This document shows positions 2,674-39,519 of a stretch of 64,000 nt of DNA, one piece after another. The notes under the pieces were generated by a model. The model made no database searches, was not told the origin of the DNA, and was given only the letters and a program-made list of their open reading frames with translations. Within the stretch, counting starts at the first letter, position 1, and each line of letters begins with the position of its first letter. Position numbers and translations under genes: made by a program. Origin of the DNA: Curtobacterium sp. UNCCL20 (GTDB lineage Bacteria; Actinomycetota; Actinomycetes; Actinomycetales; Microbacteriaceae); NCBI RefSeq assembly GCF_900101675.1, contig NZ_FNKG01000001.1, positions 1,223,378-1,287,377 on the forward strand, given 5' to 3'.

Positions 2674-3938
2674 CGGGTGACCTTCGCGGCGATGTCGGTG
2701 CGGAACTGCGCGCCCTCGAGCGTGATGTCGCCCAGGCCGGCGTAGGCGCGCGATCGTGCCTCGGCGAAGTCGGCGCCGGTCGCGACGACGCTGAGCACCC
2801 GGCCGCCGGTGGCGACGAGCTCGCCGTCGAGGAGACCGGTCGCGGCGTGCGCCACGGACACCCCGTCGCGTGCGTTCGCGGCGTCGATGCCGGTGATGAC
2901 GCGTCCGGTCTTCGGGTTCTCCGGGTAGCCCTCGCTCGCGAGCACCACGGTCACGGCGGCGTCCGGTCGGAACGCCGGCTCCGGCGCGGACCCGAGCTGC
3001 CCGGTCGCCGCGGCGAGCATGAGGCTGCTGAGCGGCGTGGCCAGACGGGGGAGGACGACCTGCGTCTCCGGGTCGCCGAAGCGCGCGTTGAACTCGATGA
3101 CCCGGACGCCCTGCTCGGTGACGATGAGCCCGCAGTAGAGGAGGCCGACGAACGGGGTCCCCTCGTGCTCGAGGCGCCGGACGGTGGGCAGGGCGACCAG
3201 GTCGGTGACCTCGGCGACGAACGCCTGCTCCGACTCCCAGCGGTCGGCGAGCCAGGGCAGCGGCGAGTACGCGCCCATGCCGCCGGTGTTCGGACCGACG
3301 TCGCCGTCGCCCAGGCGCTTGTAGTCCTGGGCGGGGCTGAGCGGGCGGACGTCGTGCCCGTCGCTCAGGAAGAACAGGGAGACCTCTTCGCCGTCGAGGA
3401 ACTCCTCGACCACGACGTGTCCGTGCTGCAGCCAGTAGGTGGCGTGGTCGATCGCGGCCTGGCGGTCCTCGGTGACCAGGACGCCCTTGCCGGCTGCGAG
3501 CCCGTCGGCCTTCACCACGTACGGGGCGCCGAGCTCGTCGATCGCGGCGACGGCTTCCTCGACGGTGCCGGCGTAGACCGGGCGGCCCGTCGGGACCTGG
3601 GCCTCGGCCATGATCCGCTTCGCGAACGCCTTCGAGCCCTCGAGCTGCGCGGCGGCCTTGCTCGGGCCGAACACCGGGATGCCCCTGGTGCGGACCGGAT
3701 CGGCGACGCCCGCGATGAGCGGGGCCTCGGGGCCGACGACCACGAGCTCGACGCCGTTCTCGAGCGCGTACTCGGCGACGAGTGCGCCGTTCGTGGGGTC
3801 GAGCGACACCGTCTCGACGTCGGCGGCGATGCCGGCGTTGCCGGGTGCCACCGTGATGACGTGACCGGCCTGCTCCGCGAGGAGGGCCGTGATGATGGCG
3901 TGCTCGCGGGCACCGGAACCGAGGACGAGGATTCGCAC
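2670..3938 (-). CDS. purD: Phosphoribosylamine-glycine ligase (GAR synthetase)
   Basis: A 422-residue ATP-grasp enzyme that joins glycine to phosphoribosylamine, the second step of purine synthesis. It begins RILVLGSGAREHAI (N-domain) and contains DGLAAGKGV, the GPNTGGMGAYSP loop and the NARFGDPETQ metal/ATP motif. The start is GTG at 3938. TAGGGT followed by six bases directly precedes it, which supports a leaderless transcript. First gene of purD-purC, divergent from the SCP2-like gene. Confidence 0.97.
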   Translation of the reverse strand: MRILVLGSGAREHAIITALLAEQAGHVITVAPGNAGIAADVETVSLDPTNGALVAEYALENGVELVVVGPEAPLIAGVADPVRTRGIPVFGPSKAAAQLEGSKAFAKRIMAEAQVPTGRPVYAGTVEEAVAAIDELGAPYVVKADGLAAGKGVLVTEDRQAAIDHATYWLQHGHVVVEEFLDGEEVSLFFLSDGHDVRPLSPAQDYKRLGDGDVGPNTGGMGAYSPLPWLADRWESEQAFVAEVTDLVALPTVRRLEHEGTPFVGLLYCGLIVTEQGVRVIEFNARFGDPETQVVLPRLATPLSSLMLAAATGQLGSAPEPAFRPDAAVTVVLASEGYPENPKTGRVITGIDAANARDGVSVAHAATGLLDGELVATGGRVLSVVATGADFAEARSRAYAGLGDITLEGAQFRTDIAAKVTR

Positions 3939-3995
3939 CCGATCACCCTACCCAGCCCGACTCGCCGCACGCGATGCGACGGCTAGCCTGTGGAC

Positions 3996-4358
3996 ATGCC
4001 ACCGAGGAGGATCGAGGACGCGGACGGGCGTGCGGCACTCACCGCCGTGCAGCAGGGCAGCGCGGCGCGTCCGGCCCTGGCGACGGCTGTCCGGTGGTCG
4101 CTCCAGCGCCTCGCCGATGACGTGCCGGGCAACAGCGTCGAGGTACGGGTGCCACCGTTCGCGGCGGTCCAGGCCGTGCCCGGCCCGCGGCACACCCGCG
4201 GGACGCCGCCGAACGTCGTCGAGACGGACGCGACGACGTGGCTGGCGCTCGCCACCGGCGCGCTGACCTGGGATGAAGCGGTTGCGCAGTCGCGCGTCAG
4301 CGCCTCCGGATCGCGTGCCGACCTGACGGCGTTCCTGCCGGTCCGACTGGACGTCTGA
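3996..4358 (+). CDS. Sterol carrier (SCP2-like) family protein
   Basis: A 120-residue soluble protein, rich in Ala and Val, whose core (SVEVRVPPFAAVQAVPGPRHTRGTPPNVVETDATTW then LALATGALTWDEAVA in two blocks) matches actinobacterial proteins annotated as sterol carrier family. These have an SCP2-like fold and are often found beside pur genes. Its ligand is unknown. The ATG at 3996 is chosen because TAGCCT (3984-3989) stands exactly six bases upstream. A GTG two codons earlier (3990) is the alternative. Confidence 0.75.
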   Translation: MPPRRIEDADGRAALTAVQQGSAARPALATAVRWSLQRLADDVPGNSVEVRVPPFAAVQAVPGPRHTRGTPPNVVETDATTWLALATGALTWDEAVAQSRVSASGSRADLTAFLPVRLDV

Positions 4359-4411
4359 CGCGACGCACGTCGACGACGCGAGCGCGGTCCGAGCCGACCT
4401 GGCATGCGGAC

Positions 4412-4445
4412 GGGAGGCGCGGTGCGGGCCCGCCACGGGCCTCCA
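4412..4445. terminator. Imperfect GGAGGC hairpin after SCP2-like gene
   Basis: The arms GGAGGCGCGGTGCGGG and CCCGCCACGGGCCTCC form a long hairpin with a few mismatches. It belongs to the same GGAGGC/GCCTCC hairpin type seen at other gene ends in this window. Confidence 0.5.
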
Positions 4446-4497
4446 GGACCCGACCACACGCGTTGCTTAGATCCGCTACGCGAATTAGGTAACGCCT

Positions 4498-4585
4498 ACT
4501 GATGTGACGTCGGCGACCGCTCGCCTACCGTAGAAGTCGCCGGGATTCGGACCCGACCCGAACGGGTCCGAACCCGGCGACAGGG
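4498..4585 (+). ncRNA. Candidate small RNA in the 4359-4698 gap
   Basis: The 340-base gap between two converging genes holds a promoter-like pair, TTGCTT (4463-4468) and TAGGTA (4486-4491), with a 17-base spacer. About 45 bases downstream of the predicted start is a strong hairpin: GTCGCCGGG (4536-4544) and TTCGGACCCG (4546-4555) pair with 4563-4581. No reading frame fits between them. A promoter with its own terminator and no gene suggests a small RNA of about 85 bases. The hairpin could instead serve the SCP2-like gene or the converging regulator. Confidence 0.25.
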
Positions 4586-28145: not shown

Positions 28146-28320
28146 CGCTCGGTCGGCCTTCGGCGCCGTGACATTGTGATCACGGAGTTTTCGTTTGGGT
28201 GTGTGTTGCTCGAGGGCTGGATTCACGTCGATCCGCGACGGGAAGAACCCCCTCCGCATTCAGCCCCCGCCGATGTCGCTGCCGGGCGCTGCGGTACGTC
28301 TGCACCCCGAGAAAGTAGCC
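28146..28320 (+). promoter_or_regulatory. Long 5' leader of the DEAD-box helicase gene
   Basis: The 266-base gap after ppk2 holds no gene. TAGACT at 28140-28145 is a possible -10 box, giving an untranslated leader of about 170 bases. This is unusual in a region where most genes are leaderless. A T-rich patch (GAGTTTTCGTTTGGG, near 28183) stands out. Long leaders on cold-shock helicase mRNAs often control their own expression; here that is inference. Confidence 0.4.
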
Positions 28321-30468
28321 ATGGCCCCGTACAACAAGGGCGCGGACAACCGCGCCTCCGACCGTGTCCGCCACCCGAACGGCACCCCCGCCGCTCGCAG
28401 CAGCAAGCACCGCGGCTTCCGCGCCGCGGACCCGTCGCAGCCTCGGCAGAAGCAGCGCTGGGACGCCGAGGAGCGTCGTGGTCGCTCGGCCCAGGGCGAG
28501 CGTCCGGCCCGCCCGAACTGGGAGCCGCGTGACGCCGGCGCCCGCCGTCCCGAGCGTGACGACCGCGGTGGCCGCCGGTTCGACCGTGACGACCGCGCTC
28601 CTCGTCGGTTCGACCGTGACGACCGTGCTCCGCGTCGTGACTCGGACGACCGTGCCCCGCGTCGGTTCGATCGTGATGACCGTGCGCCTCGTCGCTTCGA
28701 CCGTGACGACCGTGCTCCGCGTCGTGACTCGGACGATCGTGCCCCGCGCCGGTTCGACCGTGACGACCGTGCGCCGCGTCGGTTCGACCGTGACGACCGC
28801 GCCCCGCGCCGTGACTCGGACGACCGTGCGCCCCGCCGGTTCGACCGTGACGACCGCGCTCCTCGTCGGTTCGACCGTGACGACCGTGCCCCGCGTCGTG
28901 ACTCGAACGACCGTGCCCCGCGTCGGTGCGACCGTGACGACCGCGCTCCTCGTCGGTTCGACCGTGACGACCGTGCCCCGCGTCGGTTCGACCGTGACGA
29001 CCGTGCCCCGAGTCGTGACTCGGACGACCGCCCGCGCCGCAGCTTCGACCGTGACGACCGTGCCCCGCGCCGTGACTCGGACGACCGCCCGCGCCGCAGC
29101 TCCGACCGCGACGACCGCGCCCCGCGTCGGTTCGACCGCGACGACCGCGCGCCGCGTCGGTTCGACCGCGACGACCGCGACCGCGCACCCCGACGCGACG
29201 ACGCAGACCGCAAGCCCTTCGTGCCCGCGGACGACGTCAAGCTCGAGAAGCTCCAGGCCGAGTCCACCATCGCGGCCGACGTCGAGGGCGTGACCTTCGG
29301 CGACCTCGGCATCGGTGGCAACATCTCCCGTGCCCTGGCCGAACTCGGCGCGTCCAGCCCGTTCCCGATCCAGGCGGCGACGATCCCCGACGTGCTCGCC
29401 GGCAAGGACGTCCTCGGCCGTGGCCGCACCGGCTCCGGCAAGACCATCGCGTTCGGTGCGCCGCTGGTCGAGAAGCTCATGGAGCACGGCGGCGGCACCA
29501 AGCGCAAGATGGGCCGCGCCCCGCGTGCGCTCATCCTCGCACCGACCCGTGAGCTCGCCCTGCAGATCGACCGCACGGTGCAGCCCATCGCCCGTTCGGT
29601 GGGCCTGTTCACCACGCAGATCTACGGCGGTGTGCCCTACGGCCGTCAGGAGGGCGCGCTCGAGCGCGGCGTCGACATCATCGTCGGCACCCCCGGTCGT
29701 GTGCAGGACCTCATGAACAAGGGGAAGCTCGACCTCAGCGAGGTCATCATCTCCGTGCTCGACGAGGCCGACCACATGTGCGACCTCGGGTTCCTCGAGC
29801 CCGTGCAGGAGATCCTCTCCGCCACGGCCGAGGTCACCCCGCAGGGCAACCGCGCGCAGAAGCTGCTCTTCAGCGCGACGCTCGACACCCAGGTCGCGGC
29901 GCTCGTCGAGCAGTTCCTGCACGAGCCGTCCGTCCACGAGGTCGCCGGTGAGGACCAGGCGTCCTCGACCATCGACCACCGCGTGCTCGTGGTCGAGCAG
30001 CGCCAGAAGGACCAGCTCCTCGAGGAGCTCGTCGCCGGCGACGGCAAGACGATCGTCTTCGCCCGGACCCGTGCGTACGCCGAGCGCCTCGCCGACCAGT
30101 TCGAGGACGCCGGCATCCGCGCGACCTCGCTCCACGGCGACCTCAACCAGTCGCGTCGCACCCGGAACCTGCAGCTGCTCACGAGTGGCCGGGTGAACGT
30201 GCTCGTCGCGACCGACGTGGCCGCGCGTGGCATCCACGTGGACGACGTCTCGCTCGTCGTGCAGGCCGACGCGCCGGACGACTACAAGGCGTACATGCAC
30301 CGCTCCGGCCGCACGGGGCGTGCCGGCAAGGAGGGCACCGTCGTGACGATCGTCCCGCGCAGCCGTCGCCGCAAGATCGAGGGCATCCTCGAGCACGCGG
30401 AGATCGAGGCGGAGCTCGTCGACGCCGCTCCCGGTGACGGGATCGTCGCGGAGCTCGCCGCGCGGTAG
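28321..30468 (+). CDS. DEAD-box RNA helicase with giant RD-repeat N-terminus
   Basis: A 715-residue ATP-dependent RNA helicase. Residues 78-293 are an arginine/aspartate repeat (FDRDDRAPRR units). The helicase core follows: Q motif region near 325-350, RTGSGKT (369-375), PTREL, TPGR, DEAD (481-484), SAT, ATDVAARGI and HRSGRTGRAG. Such enzymes remodel mRNA and ribosome precursors, often in the cold. The low-complexity region probably binds RNA or drives condensation, but it normally follows the core and is shorter. A weak GAGAAAG lies five bases before the ATG. A perfect palindromic terminator follows. Confidence 0.95.
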   Translation: MAPYNKGADNRASDRVRHPNGTPAARSSKHRGFRAADPSQPRQKQRWDAEERRGRSAQGERPARPNWEPRDAGARRPERDDRGGRRFDRDDRAPRRFDRDDRAPRRDSDDRAPRRFDRDDRAPRRFDRDDRAPRRDSDDRAPRRFDRDDRAPRRFDRDDRAPRRDSDDRAPRRFDRDDRAPRRFDRDDRAPRRDSNDRAPRRCDRDDRAPRRFDRDDRAPRRFDRDDRAPSRDSDDRPRRSFDRDDRAPRRDSDDRPRRSSDRDDRAPRRFDRDDRAPRRFDRDDRDRAPRRDDADRKPFVPADDVKLEKLQAESTIAADVEGVTFGDLGIGGNISRALAELGASSPFPIQAATIPDVLAGKDVLGRGRTGSGKTIAFGAPLVEKLMEHGGGTKRKMGRAPRALILAPTRELALQIDRTVQPIARSVGLFTTQIYGGVPYGRQEGALERGVDIIVGTPGRVQDLMNKGKLDLSEVIISVLDEADHMCDLGFLEPVQEILSATAEVTPQGNRAQKLLFSATLDTQVAALVEQFLHEPSVHEVAGEDQASSTIDHRVLVVEQRQKDQLLEELVAGDGKTIVFARTRAYAERLADQFEDAGIRATSLHGDLNQSRRTRNLQLLTSGRVNVLVATDVAARGIHVDDVSLVVQADAPDDYKAYMHRSGRTGRAGKEGTVVTIVPRSRRRKIEGILEHAEIEAELVDAAPGDGIVAELAAR
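28552..29199 (+). repeat. Coding tandem repeats with an 87-bp super-unit
   Basis: The helicase N-terminus is built from about twenty 27- to 30-base units. Four consecutive 29-residue super-units (starting at residues 87, 116, 145 and 174) each read FDRDDRAPRR twice then DSDDRAPRR. Near-identical DNA makes this stretch prone to expansion and to assembly errors. Confidence 0.9.
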
Positions 30469-31894: not shown

Positions 31895-32494
31895 ATGTCT
31901 CGTGTCACCCCTCGCGCCGCCCGTCTCGCGGCCTGGATCGCCATCCCCGCCGCCCTCGTGGCCTCGGGTGTCGTCGTCTCGACGGCGTCCTACTCGGCCT
32001 TCTCGGCCACCACGGTCAACCCGACCAGCAACTGGACCGCCGGCAGCGTCGCCCTCACCGACGACGACAACAACACCGCGCTGTTCACCGCGACGGGCCT
32101 CAAGCCGGGTTCGACCGGTGCGAACTGCATCACCGTCACCTCGACCGGCTCGCTGCCCTCGACAGTGAAGCTCTACGGCACCAACGCCGCGACCACGAAC
32201 GCCCTCGCGTCGAACATCAACCTCACCGTGGAGCAGGGCACCGGCGGCGGCTTCGGCTCGTGCACCGGCTTCACCCCGGCGGCGACGAGCGGCAACCTCT
32301 ACACGGGCACCGTCGCCGGCTTCGGCAGCGCCTCGACCAACTTCGCGACCGGGCTCGGCACCTGGGCCCCGACCGGCAGCGGCTCGGAGTCGCGCGTCTA
32401 CCGCTTCACCTACACGGTCTCGAGCACTGCGCCGAACACCGTGCAGGGCGGCACCGCGGCCCTCGGCCTCACCTGGGAGGCCCAGAACAGCTGA
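31895..32494 (+). CDS. SipW-dependent (TasA/camelysin-like) secreted protein
   Basis: A 199-residue protein. The long signal peptide (residues 1-34, AAWIAIPAALVASGVVVSTA) ends in the motif SYSAFSATTVNPTSNW typical of substrates of SipW-type peptidases. The mature part is Thr/Ser/Gly-rich and beta-strand-like (AGSVALTDDDNNTALF then TATGLKPGSTG). TasA relatives form fibres or matrix. AGGAG lies seven bases before the ATG. The signal peptidase gene follows 119 bases downstream, the usual arrangement. Confidence 0.9.
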   Translation: MSRVTPRAARLAAWIAIPAALVASGVVVSTASYSAFSATTVNPTSNWTAGSVALTDDDNNTALFTATGLKPGSTGANCITVTSTGSLPSTVKLYGTNAATTNALASNINLTVEQGTGGGFGSCTGFTPAATSGNLYTGTVAGFGSASTNFATGLGTWAPTGSGSESRVYRFTYTVSSTAPNTVQGGTAALGLTWEAQNS

Positions 32495-32613
32495 GCGGGG
32501 CCGGCGGCGGCGTGACCACCACGCCGTCCACCTCCCGCCGACGTCCGGGACCGCATCCGTCGCGGTCCCGTCCGTCGCACCCCGAGACAACGCGCCCCCG
32601 GTCGAAGGCAGTC

Positions 32614-33777
32614 ATGACGAGCATCGCAGTGCACGGTGGTCCCACACCGCACGACGCGCTCCGTGACGCCGTCGAGTGGGGGCGCGTCGTCGTCGCCACA
32701 CTCGCCCGCGGCGTCGTCGCGACCCTGCTCGGCCTGGCGCTCTGGGCTGCGGCGCCGGCCGTGATCGGCTGGCAGCCGACGACCGTGATGACCGGCTCGA
32801 TGGAGCCCCGGCTCACCCCGGGCGACGTCGTCGTCTCGCGGCCCGTGCACGCGGACGAGGTCCGGATGGGCAAGGTCCTGCTGGCCGACGACCCGGACCA
32901 GCCCGGGCACCTCCGGATGCACCGGTACGTCGACGACGGTCCGCACGGCACGCTCGTCACGAAGGGCGACGCGAACCCGCAGCGGGACTCGACCTCCCTC
33001 GAACCCTCCGCCGTGCACGGGGTCGCCTTCCTGCGGGTGCCGTTCGTCGGGTCGCCGATCGTCTGGGTCCGCGAGGGCGAGTGGCTCCGCGTCGGGCTGC
33101 TGGCGCTCGGGCTGGTCGCGGTGCTCGCGCTGTGCACGGTCGACGGGTCGCTCCGTCGGCTGGTCCCGACGGACGAGACCGAGGACGAGGACGACTCCGC
33201 GGGTGACGACGACGACGCGGCCCCCGGTGGGGTGGGCGGTGCCGACGACGGCCTGGAGGCACGCGTCGACCCCGCCACGGGCCTCCAGTCCGCGGTGTCC
33301 CCGGGTCCCACCCGCCGTGACGCGCGTCGGCACGAGCGCCGCGCGCGTCGGCTCCGCCGACTGGGCGGTGTGGCGGCCGTCCTCGTGCTCGCGGGCGGGG
33401 CCGGGCTGCTGCTGCCCGGGCAGGCGGTGGCGGCCCCGTGGTCGAGGACCACGGTGAACCCGACGTCGAGCTTCGGGGCGCTGACCGTGCCGCCGGCGAC
33501 GGCACTCCTCTGCACGCCGAACGGTGACGGCAGCGTGAACATCGCCTTCGCGTACGGCGGCCCCGCCGCCACGTCGTTCACCGTGCTCAACGGCACGAAC
33601 GCGCTCGCCACGGGAGCGACGTCGCCGGTCCGGGTCACCGGGTCCGGGCTCCTCAACCTGGGGCAGGTCTACACGGTGACCGTGCGGGTGAACTACCTCG
33701 GGAACTGGACGTCGACGAGCAGTGCCACCGCCCGCATCCAGACCGCCCTCATCGGCACGAACCTCAGCTGCGCCTGA
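32614..33777 (+). CDS. SipW-type signal peptidase fused to a secreted domain
   Basis: A 387-residue protein. Residues 1-175 are an ER/SipW-type signal peptidase I: helix at 25-52, GSMEP with catalytic Ser62, MHRYV with His103 in place of the usual lysine, TKGDAN with Asp119, and a second helix at 158-175. An acidic linker (185-205) and a repeat-derived linker (212-226) follow. Residues 232-275 then look like a second signal peptide (RRARRLRRL, hydrophobic core, AVAAP). The last 105 residues are a beta-rich secreted domain starting RTTVNPTSSF, like the mature start of the neighbouring substrate. A GTG at 33295 could start this part separately. Confidence 0.88.
   Translation: MTSIAVHGGPTPHDALRDAVEWGRVVVATLARGVVATLLGLALWAAAPAVIGWQPTTVMTGSMEPRLTPGDVVVSRPVHADEVRMGKVLLADDPDQPGHLRMHRYVDDGPHGTLVTKGDANPQRDSTSLEPSAVHGVAFLRVPFVGSPIVWVREGEWLRVGLLALGLVAVLALCTVDGSLRRLVPTDETEDEDDSAGDDDDAAPGGVGGADDGLEARVDPATGLQSAVSPGPTRRDARRHERRARRLRRLGGVAAVLVLAGGAGLLLPGQAVAAPWSRTTVNPTSSFGALTVPPATALLCTPNGDGSVNIAFAYGGPAATSFTVLNGTNALATGATSPVRVTGSGLLNLGQVYTVTVRVNYLGNWTSTSSATARIQTALIGTNLSCA
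33251..33290 (+). repeat. GCCTGGAGGC element inside the signal peptidase fusion
   Basis: GCCTGGAGGC (33251-33260) and GGGCCTCCAG (33279-33288) form the same arms used as intergenic terminators elsewhere in the window. Here they are in frame and encode the linker GLEARVDPATGLQS between the two halves of the fused protein. Confidence 0.75.
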
Positions 33778-38005: not shown

Positions 38006-38182
38006 TCAGGGCGACGGCGTGACGTCGACCGTGCCGTCCGGCGGCGGCAGGATGTCGGCGGCGATCCACGGGAACACCCACGTGAACAGCGCGAAGACGA
38101 TCGCGGCGAGGAGCACGAGCAGCTCCAGCACCTTCAGGGCGGCGGGACCGGGCAGGATCCGCCAGACGAACGGGAAGATCAC
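38006..38182 (-). CDS. Tiny membrane protein coupled to the class E sortase
   Basis: A 58-residue protein starting GTG (IFPFVWRILPGPAALKVLEL). One long hydrophobic stretch (residues 15-42) is followed by a short Pro-rich exterior tail (ILPPPDGTVDV). Its start overlaps the sortase stop by four bases (GTGA), a strong coupling signal. I know no family function. It may anchor or modulate the sortase, or simply be the second gene of an operon. Confidence 0.7.
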   Translation of the reverse strand: MIFPFVWRILPGPAALKVLELLVLLAAIVFALFTWVFPWIAADILPPPDGTVDVTPSP

Positions 38183-38994
38183 TTCGACGTCTCCGAGACT
38201 TCCTTCGGGGTGCCCTCGGACGCGGGCATCCAGTACGCGAGCTTGGCGTGCGTGACGTAGCGCTCCTTGGCGGACCACATCGGGTGGCAGGCGGTGAGGG
38301 TGAGCCAGCGGTCGTCGGCGGTGGGTTCCACGCCGGGCTTGTTCGGCACCGGCGCGATGGTCTCGATGTGGTCGGGCGTGACGATCTGCGAGTCGGTGAC
38401 CCGGTACACGTACCAGACGTCGAACTTCGTCTTCGCGTCGGTGACCCGCACGACGATGTCGTCGCCGGTCTTGAGCTCGGCGATCTGGTTGAGCGGCTTG
38501 CCGTAGGTCACCCGGTGCCCGGCGACGGCGAAGTTGCCCTCGGCTCCCGGCATCGCGGTGTCCTGGTAGTGGCCGAGTCCGATCGTGTTGAGCACCTTCT
38601 CGCGATCGGTGCCCTCGCCGATGGGCCGGACGTAGTCCTTGCCGAACCGGGGGATCTGCATCGTGCCGAACACGTCGGTGACGTCCGGTGGCTCGGCGAG
38701 CACGGGCGCTGGCCCGTGGTGCTCGGTACCCGTCCCGGTGGTCGGGGTCGACTTCTGGTGGAGTCCCTCGACGAGCTTCGTCTGCTGGTTCACGGCGACG
38801 ACGTCGGTCCACCACGCCGTCCACACCACGTAGAGCCCGGTGCCGGCACCCGCGATGATCAGGAGCTCGGCGATCAGCGAGACGATGACACCGCCGACGG
38901 TCTGCCGACGACGAGTCGGCCGCTTCGCCCGGTCGGCACCGGCGTCACCGTCGCGGCGGGAACGGCGCGACGGGAGTGTCTCGTGTGCGGTCAC
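38179..38994 (-). CDS. Class E sortase
   Basis: A 271-residue membrane-anchored transpeptidase with a basic cytosolic N-terminus, one helix at residues 35-58 and an extracellular sortase domain. Catalytic residues: His160 in AVAGHRVTYG, Cys236 in TLTACHP and Arg245 in KERYV. TLTAC is the class E form. Class E enzymes in high-GC actinobacteria attach LAxTG-type proteins to peptidoglycan; no such substrate lies in this window. GTG at 38994 has AGGAG four bases upstream. The tiny gene at 38006-38182 is coupled downstream. Confidence 0.92.
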   Translation of the reverse strand: MTAHETLPSRRSRRDGDAGADRAKRPTRRRQTVGGVIVSLIAELLIIAGAGTGLYVVWTAWWTDVVAVNQQTKLVEGLHQKSTPTTGTGTEHHGPAPVLAEPPDVTDVFGTMQIPRFGKDYVRPIGEGTDREKVLNTIGLGHYQDTAMPGAEGNFAVAGHRVTYGKPLNQIAELKTGDDIVVRVTDAKTKFDVWYVYRVTDSQIVTPDHIETIAPVPNKPGVEPTADDRWLTLTACHPMWSAKERYVTHAKLAYWMPASEGTPKEVSETSK

Positions 38995-39090
38995 GTGGCT
39001 CCTGATCCGGGTGGGGTAGTCGGACAGGTCTATCAGACCACGGCGACGGCTCCGTGACGATGTTCTCCACAGCACCGTTACCGTGAGGAG

Positions 39091-39519
39091 ATGCAGCACG
39101 TCATCCGGACCTTCGCCCCCGACGACACCGAGGCGGTCGTCGCCCTGTGGGAATCGTGCGACCTCGTCCGTCCGTGGAACGACCCCCGGCGGGACATCGC
39201 CCGGAAGCTGACCGTGCAGCCGGAGCTGTTCCTGGTCGCCGAGGGGCCGGACGGTGCGGTCGTCGGCGCCGGAATGGCCGGGTTCGACGGGCACCGCGGG
39301 TGGGTGAACTACCTCGCGGTCCGACCCGACCTGCAGGGTTCCGGGCTCGGTCGGGCGATGATGGCGGAGTTCGAGCGGCTGCTGACGGACCTCGGCTGCC
39401 CGAAGCTCAACCTCCAGGTGCGCGCGGGCAACGAGCAGGTGATCGGCTTCTACGAGTCCCTCGGCTTCACCCCGGACCACACGGTGTCGCTCGGGAAGCG
39501 GCTCATCCCCGACGCCTGA
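39091..39519 (+). CDS. GNAT-family acetyltransferase (YpeA-like)
   Basis: A 142-residue GNAT enzyme. The acetyl-CoA loop is VRPDLQGSGLGRAMMAEFER, preceded by WVNYLAV (beta 4). The later LNLQVRAGNEQVIGFYESLG with FTPD is the usual C-terminal signature. It resembles the small YpeA group; the acceptor is unknown. TACCGT (39079-39084) is six bases before the ATG. It is divergent from the sortase operon and ends before a long hairpin. Confidence 0.92.
   Translation: MQHVIRTFAPDDTEAVVALWESCDLVRPWNDPRRDIARKLTVQPELFLVAEGPDGAVVGAGMAGFDGHRGWVNYLAVRPDLQGSGLGRAMMAEFERLLTDLGCPKLNLQVRAGNEQVIGFYESLGFTPDHTVSLGKRLIPDA

Follow-up and report, generated by a model that had tools for sequence, protein, structure and literature searches.

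In Bacillus subtilis, the mature N-terminus of TasA, which includes F29, I32 and F39, forms the strand inserted into the following subunit. The filaments are started by TapA, an immunoglobulin (Ig)-domain protein with a disulfide and a TasA-similar N-terminus (PubMed Central (PMC) articles PMC9674648 and PMC10151520, in excerpt). The stop and start codons of tapA and sipW overlap, which is read as a hint of association in the part of the article cited here (PMC10151520). A comparable but fused arrangement is found in Curtobacterium sp. UNCCL20, in a stretch of 64,000 nucleotides (contig NZ_FNKG01000001.1, positions 1,223,378 to 1,287,377) referred to here as the window. In this stretch, a gene for a TasA-like protein is followed by a gene that joins a SipW-type signal peptidase, a second signal peptide and a cargo domain in one protein. 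The pair can be regarded as a probable two-gene surface-filament module of the TasA/TapA kind, in which the peptidase is fused with a TapA-like minor subunit, although a good measure of doubt attaches to this assignment.

Architecture of the fused protein

The fused gene is an open reading frame (ORF) of 387 amino acids (aa) without internal stop (Table 1). Three helices are predicted from hydropathy, at about residues 25-43, 158-176 and 250-268, of which the first two would be the membrane helices of the peptidase. Residues 178-233 contain 3 K/R and 15 D/E and residues 234-250 contain 10 K/R and 2 D/E, so that the positive-inside rule would place the linker on the inner and the C-terminal domain on the outer side of the membrane. 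Behind the third helix comes AVA^APW, and the predicted mature part (A274-A387) comprises 114 aa with a mass of 11.4 kDa. The initial annotation had described a peptidase with its own n-h-c signal peptide and a substrate-like C-terminal half of about 11 kDa. This layout is present in the ORF and conserved well beyond the UNCCL20 genome, as is the substrate-like half; the basic stretch 234-250, the hydrophobic core 250-268 and AVA^APW correspond to the three parts of the signal, and the predicted mass is close to the one given.

The peptidase had been assigned to the SipW/endoplasmic reticulum (ER) type, which agrees with its closest relatives. In a search with a profile of 32 fused cores, human SEC11C, which belongs to the ER signal peptidase complex, is the best solved relative (E 2.6e-13), and bacterial P-type enzymes score E 0.055 or worse. 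Residues S62 and H103 provide the Ser-His dyad of ER-type enzymes (S26B, SipW/SEC11), as opposed to the Ser-Lys of P-type enzymes. The proposed catalytic residues Ser62, His103 and Asp119 are correctly placed and invariant in a close alignment (22/22 rows, window included), and all three, together with D125, are invariant in a divergent alignment of fused peptidases (32/32 rows, window included). The role given to Asp119 holds less well, since in the SEC11C alignment it is D125 that stands opposite the final Asp of GDNNxxDD, which we take to be the triad Asp, and D125 is therefore the likelier catalytic residue. The window peptidase scores below the curated cut-offs of TIGR02228 (47.2 against 51.85 bits), SipW NF046067 (32.2 against 190) and Pfam S26 (14.8 against 22.9). 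It is thus described here as a divergent, ER-type-like enzyme predicted to cleave signal peptides, without being counted as a member of the SipW equivalog.

Distribution of the fusion

A genome scan found the fusion in 24 of 24 related loci from other assemblies (18 Curtobacterium, 5 Frigoribacterium and Arthrobacter cupressi). The nearest relatives are 17 Curtobacterium loci (L005-L021), with a best segment 53 to 77% identical; L019 starts at a contig end and is without its first residues. A search for this architecture in the Microbacteriaceae, suggested in the initial annotation, was run on 249 genomes with a catalytic profile and gave 35 upper-tier matches (>85 bits), all of which have a tail of more than 150 residues with a second signal and cargo. 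Such a cargo is missing behind the best match in the 13 lower-scoring loci inspected (L060-L062, L069-L078). The class search (345 genomes) gave a strong match in 19; its 18 loci (L079-L096) include 12 fused (L079 and L081-L092 except L091, which is cut by a contig end) and 5 plain ones. L094, where the profile match lies at an odd place in the ORF, was removed from the fused set and counted as plain in the neighbour-gene tally. At the level of the phylum, a broader profile matched 69 of 396 genomes, and 8 of the 28 loci examined are fused and 20 unfused. Among three plasmid matches listed in Arthrobacter relatives, both of those opened are fused, and their annotations name the cargo only (“glycosyl hydrolase” and “Ig-like domain-containing protein”). 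Together, the genome scan and the searches of family and class provide 66 fused loci (the 24 and 42 further), and the 8 phylum loci bring the set to 74; the locus itself and duplicates of fetched loci (L031-L035) are left out of these counts.

Two further S26-like genes were observed. L075 contains a weak second S26 gene (3599-4501, 36.8 bits) with a tail whose signal ends TTAAFTD, and the fusion may thus reach more distant SipW groups. An S26-like ORF of 333 aa in the same genome as the window (L062 1872-2870, C6 near 841 kb) has a tail of a different kind, with extra hydrophobic stretches around a TITNTASPTG segment.

The predicted cleavage zone behind the second signal

The zone around the predicted cut follows one pattern in 65 of the 66 loci: small-x-small, one residue, an optional P/G/S/A, and then F/W/Y (500 shuffles: mean 13.0, max 22). 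A second anchor is found 9-11 residues further on in 60 of 66 (shuffles: mean 8.1, max 17). The aromatic occupies P2' in at least 38 loci and P3' in 27; in 21 of the latter it is preceded by Pro, as is the case in the fused protein of the window. Of the 8 fused loci of the phylum set, 7 have such an aromatic. The pattern was composed after the sequences had been viewed, and its shuffle control is likewise post hoc. Two stricter tests made earlier were less favorable. A fixed-length position matrix from TasA-like N-termini gave a mixed result, with 28/66 loci above the 99th shuffle percentile, and 12/1539 control ORFs exceed the fused median. An automatic cleavage-site picker performed poorly, placing the aromatic at P2'/P3' in 30/66 and at P1' in 2; on controls it did so in 2/17 signal-like N-termini.

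An aromatic at P2' is absent from all 143 E. coli proteins verified as LepB-cleaved, and TasA, with Phe at P2', is processed by the ER-type SipW, according to the part of PMC10269814 cited here. For this reason the aromatic near the site is of importance, and the site is probably of a kind handled badly by the housekeeping enzyme. The Pro form of the window protein, with its aromatic at P3', differs from TasA.

A segment common to cargo and neighbour

The start of the cargo had been matched to the neighbouring SipW-type protein, and RTTVNPTSSF and ATTVNPTSNW are indeed identical at 7 of 10 positions. The exact 10-mer is not preserved even within Curtobacterium; what is kept is a 13-residue segment whose similarity, taken over 67 loci, exceeds order-shuffled controls. 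W276 and F287 of the cargo are spaced 11 apart, as are F36 and W47 of the TasA-like neighbour. Over the 12 residues after the aromatic, cargo and same-locus neighbour have a BLOSUM62 score of 19.6 (67 pairs, those of the 74 fused loci in which both anchors were found), and the shuffled-order control gives 1.46 +/- 0.79 with a maximum of 3.81 in 500. This test is anchored on the post hoc cleavage pattern, with the aromatic itself excluded, and on the TasA-like side the anchor prescribes S/T at the next position and restricts the fourth position after it. Outside the Curtobacterium and Frigoribacterium loci, a similar result is obtained for LamG (28), non-LamG (15) and class/phylum loci (15). 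The cargo fits its own partner better than those of other loci (25.2 vs 20.0 +/- 0.85; 62 pairs; 0/2000), for which genome kinship could be the cause.

A signal peptidase is known to read a few residues past its site. The similarity between cargo and neighbour extends to about P14', beyond the residues so read, and docking is therefore favored over mere recognition, with common descent as a further possibility. As in TapA, a segment resembling the donor strand of TasA stands at the predicted mature N-terminus of the cargo.

Exchange of the cargo

Behind this constant joint the cargo varies. The 66 loci have a two-cysteine sandwich-like domain (the window type), LamG, ice-binding-like domains, Ig repeats or an unassigned cargo, and further fused loci have GH26, RCC1 or a WD40-like propeller with fn3. 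The Pfam searches covered 20 fused proteins and the two plasmid ones; the other labels were given by eye. LamG was confirmed in six (L040, L044, L048, L084, L106, L108) and ice-binding in all three run (L053, L055, L057), and Big_7 Ig was found in L092 and P0004, GH26 in P0003, RCC1 in L107 and WD40-like with fn3 in L114. L054 has Pfam matches under the cut-offs only, and no Pfam cargo family was found for L042, L052, L058, L110, L111, L112 or L116. A tree built from the peptidase core requires at least 8 changes of cargo label, where 5 would be the minimum for 6 labels; on it, a LamG member adjoins the Curtobacterium sandwich group. This tree was made quickly with labels given by eye, 27 of its 67 inner branches are open, and L056 was left out because its peptidase is partial. 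Mean identity within Curtobacterium is 83% for the peptidase core and 53% for the cargo (17 rows), and 87% for the TasA-like neighbour (5 rows).

In the sandwich-like type C300 and C386 are invariant, and fn3 matches 1 of 22 members weakly (0.068). By sequence, nothing significant was found for this cargo in Pfam or the PDB (PDB best 0.23).

The TasA-like neighbour and its surroundings

A TasA-like homologue lies directly upstream of 64 of the 66 fused genes. The predicted-fold model of the TasA-like protein has the TasA fibre 8aur as its best match, which points to a TasA fold, and FimA pilins rank after TasA in the Foldseek list. Pfam M73/camelysin matches 20/32 family members at E 0.1 (best 3.8e-6) and the NCBIfam TasA model 8/32 (best 1.4e-5), and the TasA-like protein of the window matches neither at E 0.1 (M73 12.4 bits, E 0.15); it matches BhsA at E 0.0033, below the BhsA cut-off. 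When the TasA-like profile was run against the PDB with matches accepted to E 10, no TasA was found; the best match, the MS2 coat protein (4e-4), was taken as chance. F36 and W47 are invariant in 32 rows. One alignment of the TasA-like proteins (A5) is without L052, L054, L057 and L059, of which L054 has an in-frame stop and the other three were dropped without a test. The stop in the L054 partner gene is a single TAG, from decay or a draft-genome sequencing error. A second TasA-like gene is present further upstream of the fused gene in L082 and downstream in L089, L052 and L106, so that some modules would have two TasA-like subunits.

The gap between the two genes was considered as an attenuator and rejected, as its hairpin stability (z -1.73; 8/200 shuffles as stable) is not clearly special. 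A search for a sigma-70-like promoter found none.

Table 1. Features of the two-gene locus, by position in the window.
Feature	Position	Strand	Remarks
TasA-like filament protein gene	31895..32494	+	199 aa, SipW-type signal, predicted cut ASYS^AFSATTVNPTSNW
Gap between genes	32495..32613	+	119 nt, two strong predicted hairpins
Fused gene: signal peptidase, second signal peptide, secreted cargo	32614..33777	+	387 aa
S26/SipW (ER-type) peptidase core	32671..33159	+	residues 20-182; profile matches, hydropathy
Catalytic Ser62 codon (T-G-S-M)	32797..32799	+	invariant in 32/32 rows
Catalytic His103 codon (M-H-R)	32920..32922	+	invariant in 32/32 rows
Asp119 (K-G-D-A-N) to Asp125 codons	32968..32988	+	two catalytic Asp candidates, both invariant in 32/32
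Linker	33160..33348	+	residues 183-245; acidic then basic, predicted cytoplasmic
Second signal peptide	33349..33432	+	residues 246-273; ends AVA, predicted cut A273/A274
Proposed donor-strand segment of cargo	33433..33480	+	residues 274-289; anchors W276 and F287, 11 apart
Cargo, beta-rich domain	33481..33774	+	residues 290-387; Cys300 and Cys386 conserved in sandwich-like type

Elsewhere in the same genome (L104, C4:359900-364600), a second, unfused SipW gene stands with three separate SipW-type substrates, the signals of which read TYALWN, TFALWN and AWALWA, and two SipW systems may exist side by side. One of these substrates has an Ig-like tail that starts ALTC, ends VRCGA and resembles the fused cargo; kinship between the two was rejected for lack of a significant score (3.4 bits). 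Within the window, an ORF about 4.5 kb downstream of the pair (38179-39480, reverse strand) has, by eye, the look of a class E sortase (TLTACHPMWSAKERYVTHAKL). A DEAD-box helicase gene (28195-30468), recognized by eye, contains a 30-bp repeat in about 20 copies (28573-29177), the units of which encode RDDRAPRR-like sequences.

Proposed mechanism

In the proposed scheme, gene 1 (31895-32494) would supply the major TasA-like subunit, and gene 2 the ER-type (SipW) peptidase in one chain with the minor, TapA-like subunit. The protein would insert N-in, with helix 1 leading to a catalytic domain outside, helix 2 leading back and the charged linker remaining inside, and the second signal would then thread the cargo outward. 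The attached peptidase domain, or that of a neighbouring copy, would cut after AVA and free the 11.4-kDa cargo, whose new N-terminus, A-P-W with F 11 residues on, would serve as donor strand. On entering the groove of the TasA-like subunit, this strand would allow the cargo to start or tip the filament, and the same fused peptidase would trim the TasA-like subunit. The cargo may be an exchangeable working head, sandwich-like here and LamG, ice-binding-like, Ig, GH26, RCC1 or propeller elsewhere. One chain for enzyme and minor subunit would set their ratio and locate release where the filament subunits are trimmed.

The initial annotation had proposed a built-in maturation switch, for which no support was gained. 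Instead, the evidence favors a role in supplying the subunit that initiates or tips a filament, since the shared segment corresponds to the donor-strand region of TasA-type filaments and the predicted fold places the neighbour in the TasA family. A peptidase fusion beside a TasA-type gene suggests a route not familiar so far for building and tipping surface fibres. In its widest form, for which the arguments appear evenly balanced, the proposal is an Actinomycetota-wide donor-strand system in which the initiator or tip adhesin is made as the C-terminal half of its own peptidase and frees itself, a common 13-residue plug takes almost any head (lectin, ice-binding, glycosidase, Ig, propeller), and one precursor yields one peptidase and one tip.

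Alternative explanations

Release by another enzyme is unlikely but has the most to be said for it. Housekeeping signal peptidase I or a separate SipW would free the cargo, the fusion would only couple expression, and the segment would serve peptidase recognition. The genome does contain two strong S26 matches (E 6.7e-45 and 1.2e-44) that are presumably of the P type, together with an unfused SipW that has three adjacent SipW-type substrates (one over the TIGR04088 cut-off, one under it and one recognized by eye). An aromatic at P2' is, however, a poor LepB site in the cited part of PMC10269814; the fused protein of the window has its aromatic at P3'. In addition, the substrates of the unfused SipW read -ALW- by eye, unlike the AF/PW sites of the fused proteins, and the similarity between cargo and neighbour reaches about P14'. 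Sequence does not distinguish cutting in cis from cutting by a sister copy or by a different peptidase.

Somewhat less credible is an uncut membrane anchor, in which the peptidase would serve the TasA-like neighbour only and the C-terminal domain would be a fixed display tethering the filament to the cell. The linker (median 54 residues in the fused loci) and the hydrophobic stretch could form such an anchor, and TapA has been reported as colocalised with the membrane (PMC10151520, in excerpt). On the other hand, an anchor has no need of the small-x-small motif before an aromatic, which is kept in nearly every locus despite wholesale change of cargo, and the segment behind the site could work in the manner of TasA only with its N-terminus free.

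It is very improbable that the cargo is additionally produced by itself from an internal start, which would leave the fusion of little account: an in-frame ATG lies between core and second signal in 15/66 loci, but ATG/GTG/TTG with a Shine-Dalgarno-like stretch is found there in 2/66 only. An assembly or frameshift artefact joining two genes is refuted for practical purposes, since the 24 loci from other assemblies have the same layout and the frame runs uninterrupted from peptidase into second signal and cargo in these and in the 42 further loci, with an apparent frameshift within the cargo of L056.

Comparison with known systems

If delivery of a filament tip by the fused peptidase is correct, TasA-type filaments would extend to actinobacteria, including plant-leaf and soil genera, and a signal peptidase carrying its own substrate would offer a testable case of cutting in cis. 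Head exchange behind a short N-terminal plug would constitute a natural surface-display system. The fusion also explains proteins that are annotated by their cargo alone. Among the matches listed in the open PMC literature, with subscription papers and preprints outside its scope, no signal peptidase-substrate fusion and no actinobacterial TasA-type filaments were found, nor did that literature pair SipW with LamG, or signal peptidase with LamG and Microbacteriaceae.

Chaperone-usher pili (FimA, PapA), which are assembled by a chaperone and an usher, share the donor-strand pilin logic, and no common descent is claimed. For the archaeal bundling pili of Pyrobaculum (7ueg), we know of no fused peptidase. 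SipW (NF046067) and the archaeal-type signal peptidase I (TIGR02228) have the same Ser-His-Asp layout and two membrane helices, whereas the fused protein adds linker, signal and cargo and scores under both cut-offs. The sipW-tasA, calY and CapP genes of Bacillus cereus similarly provide SipW-processed TasA-family proteins and a TapA-like helper (PMC13082335, in excerpt), but as separate genes. The tapA-sipW-tasA system of B. subtilis has an ER-type peptidase, a TasA-family subunit with a P2' aromatic and a minor subunit with a TasA-like N-terminus. Its TapA has an Ig domain with a disulfide, and the likeness of the cargo to TapA is one of role only, without a claim to family membership. In B. 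subtilis the peptidase and the minor subunit are separate genes, whereas in the fused system they are one protein, with another gene order and an exchangeable minor-subunit domain. SipW-TasA filament systems are known, and the fused architecture and the swappable heads appear to be new.
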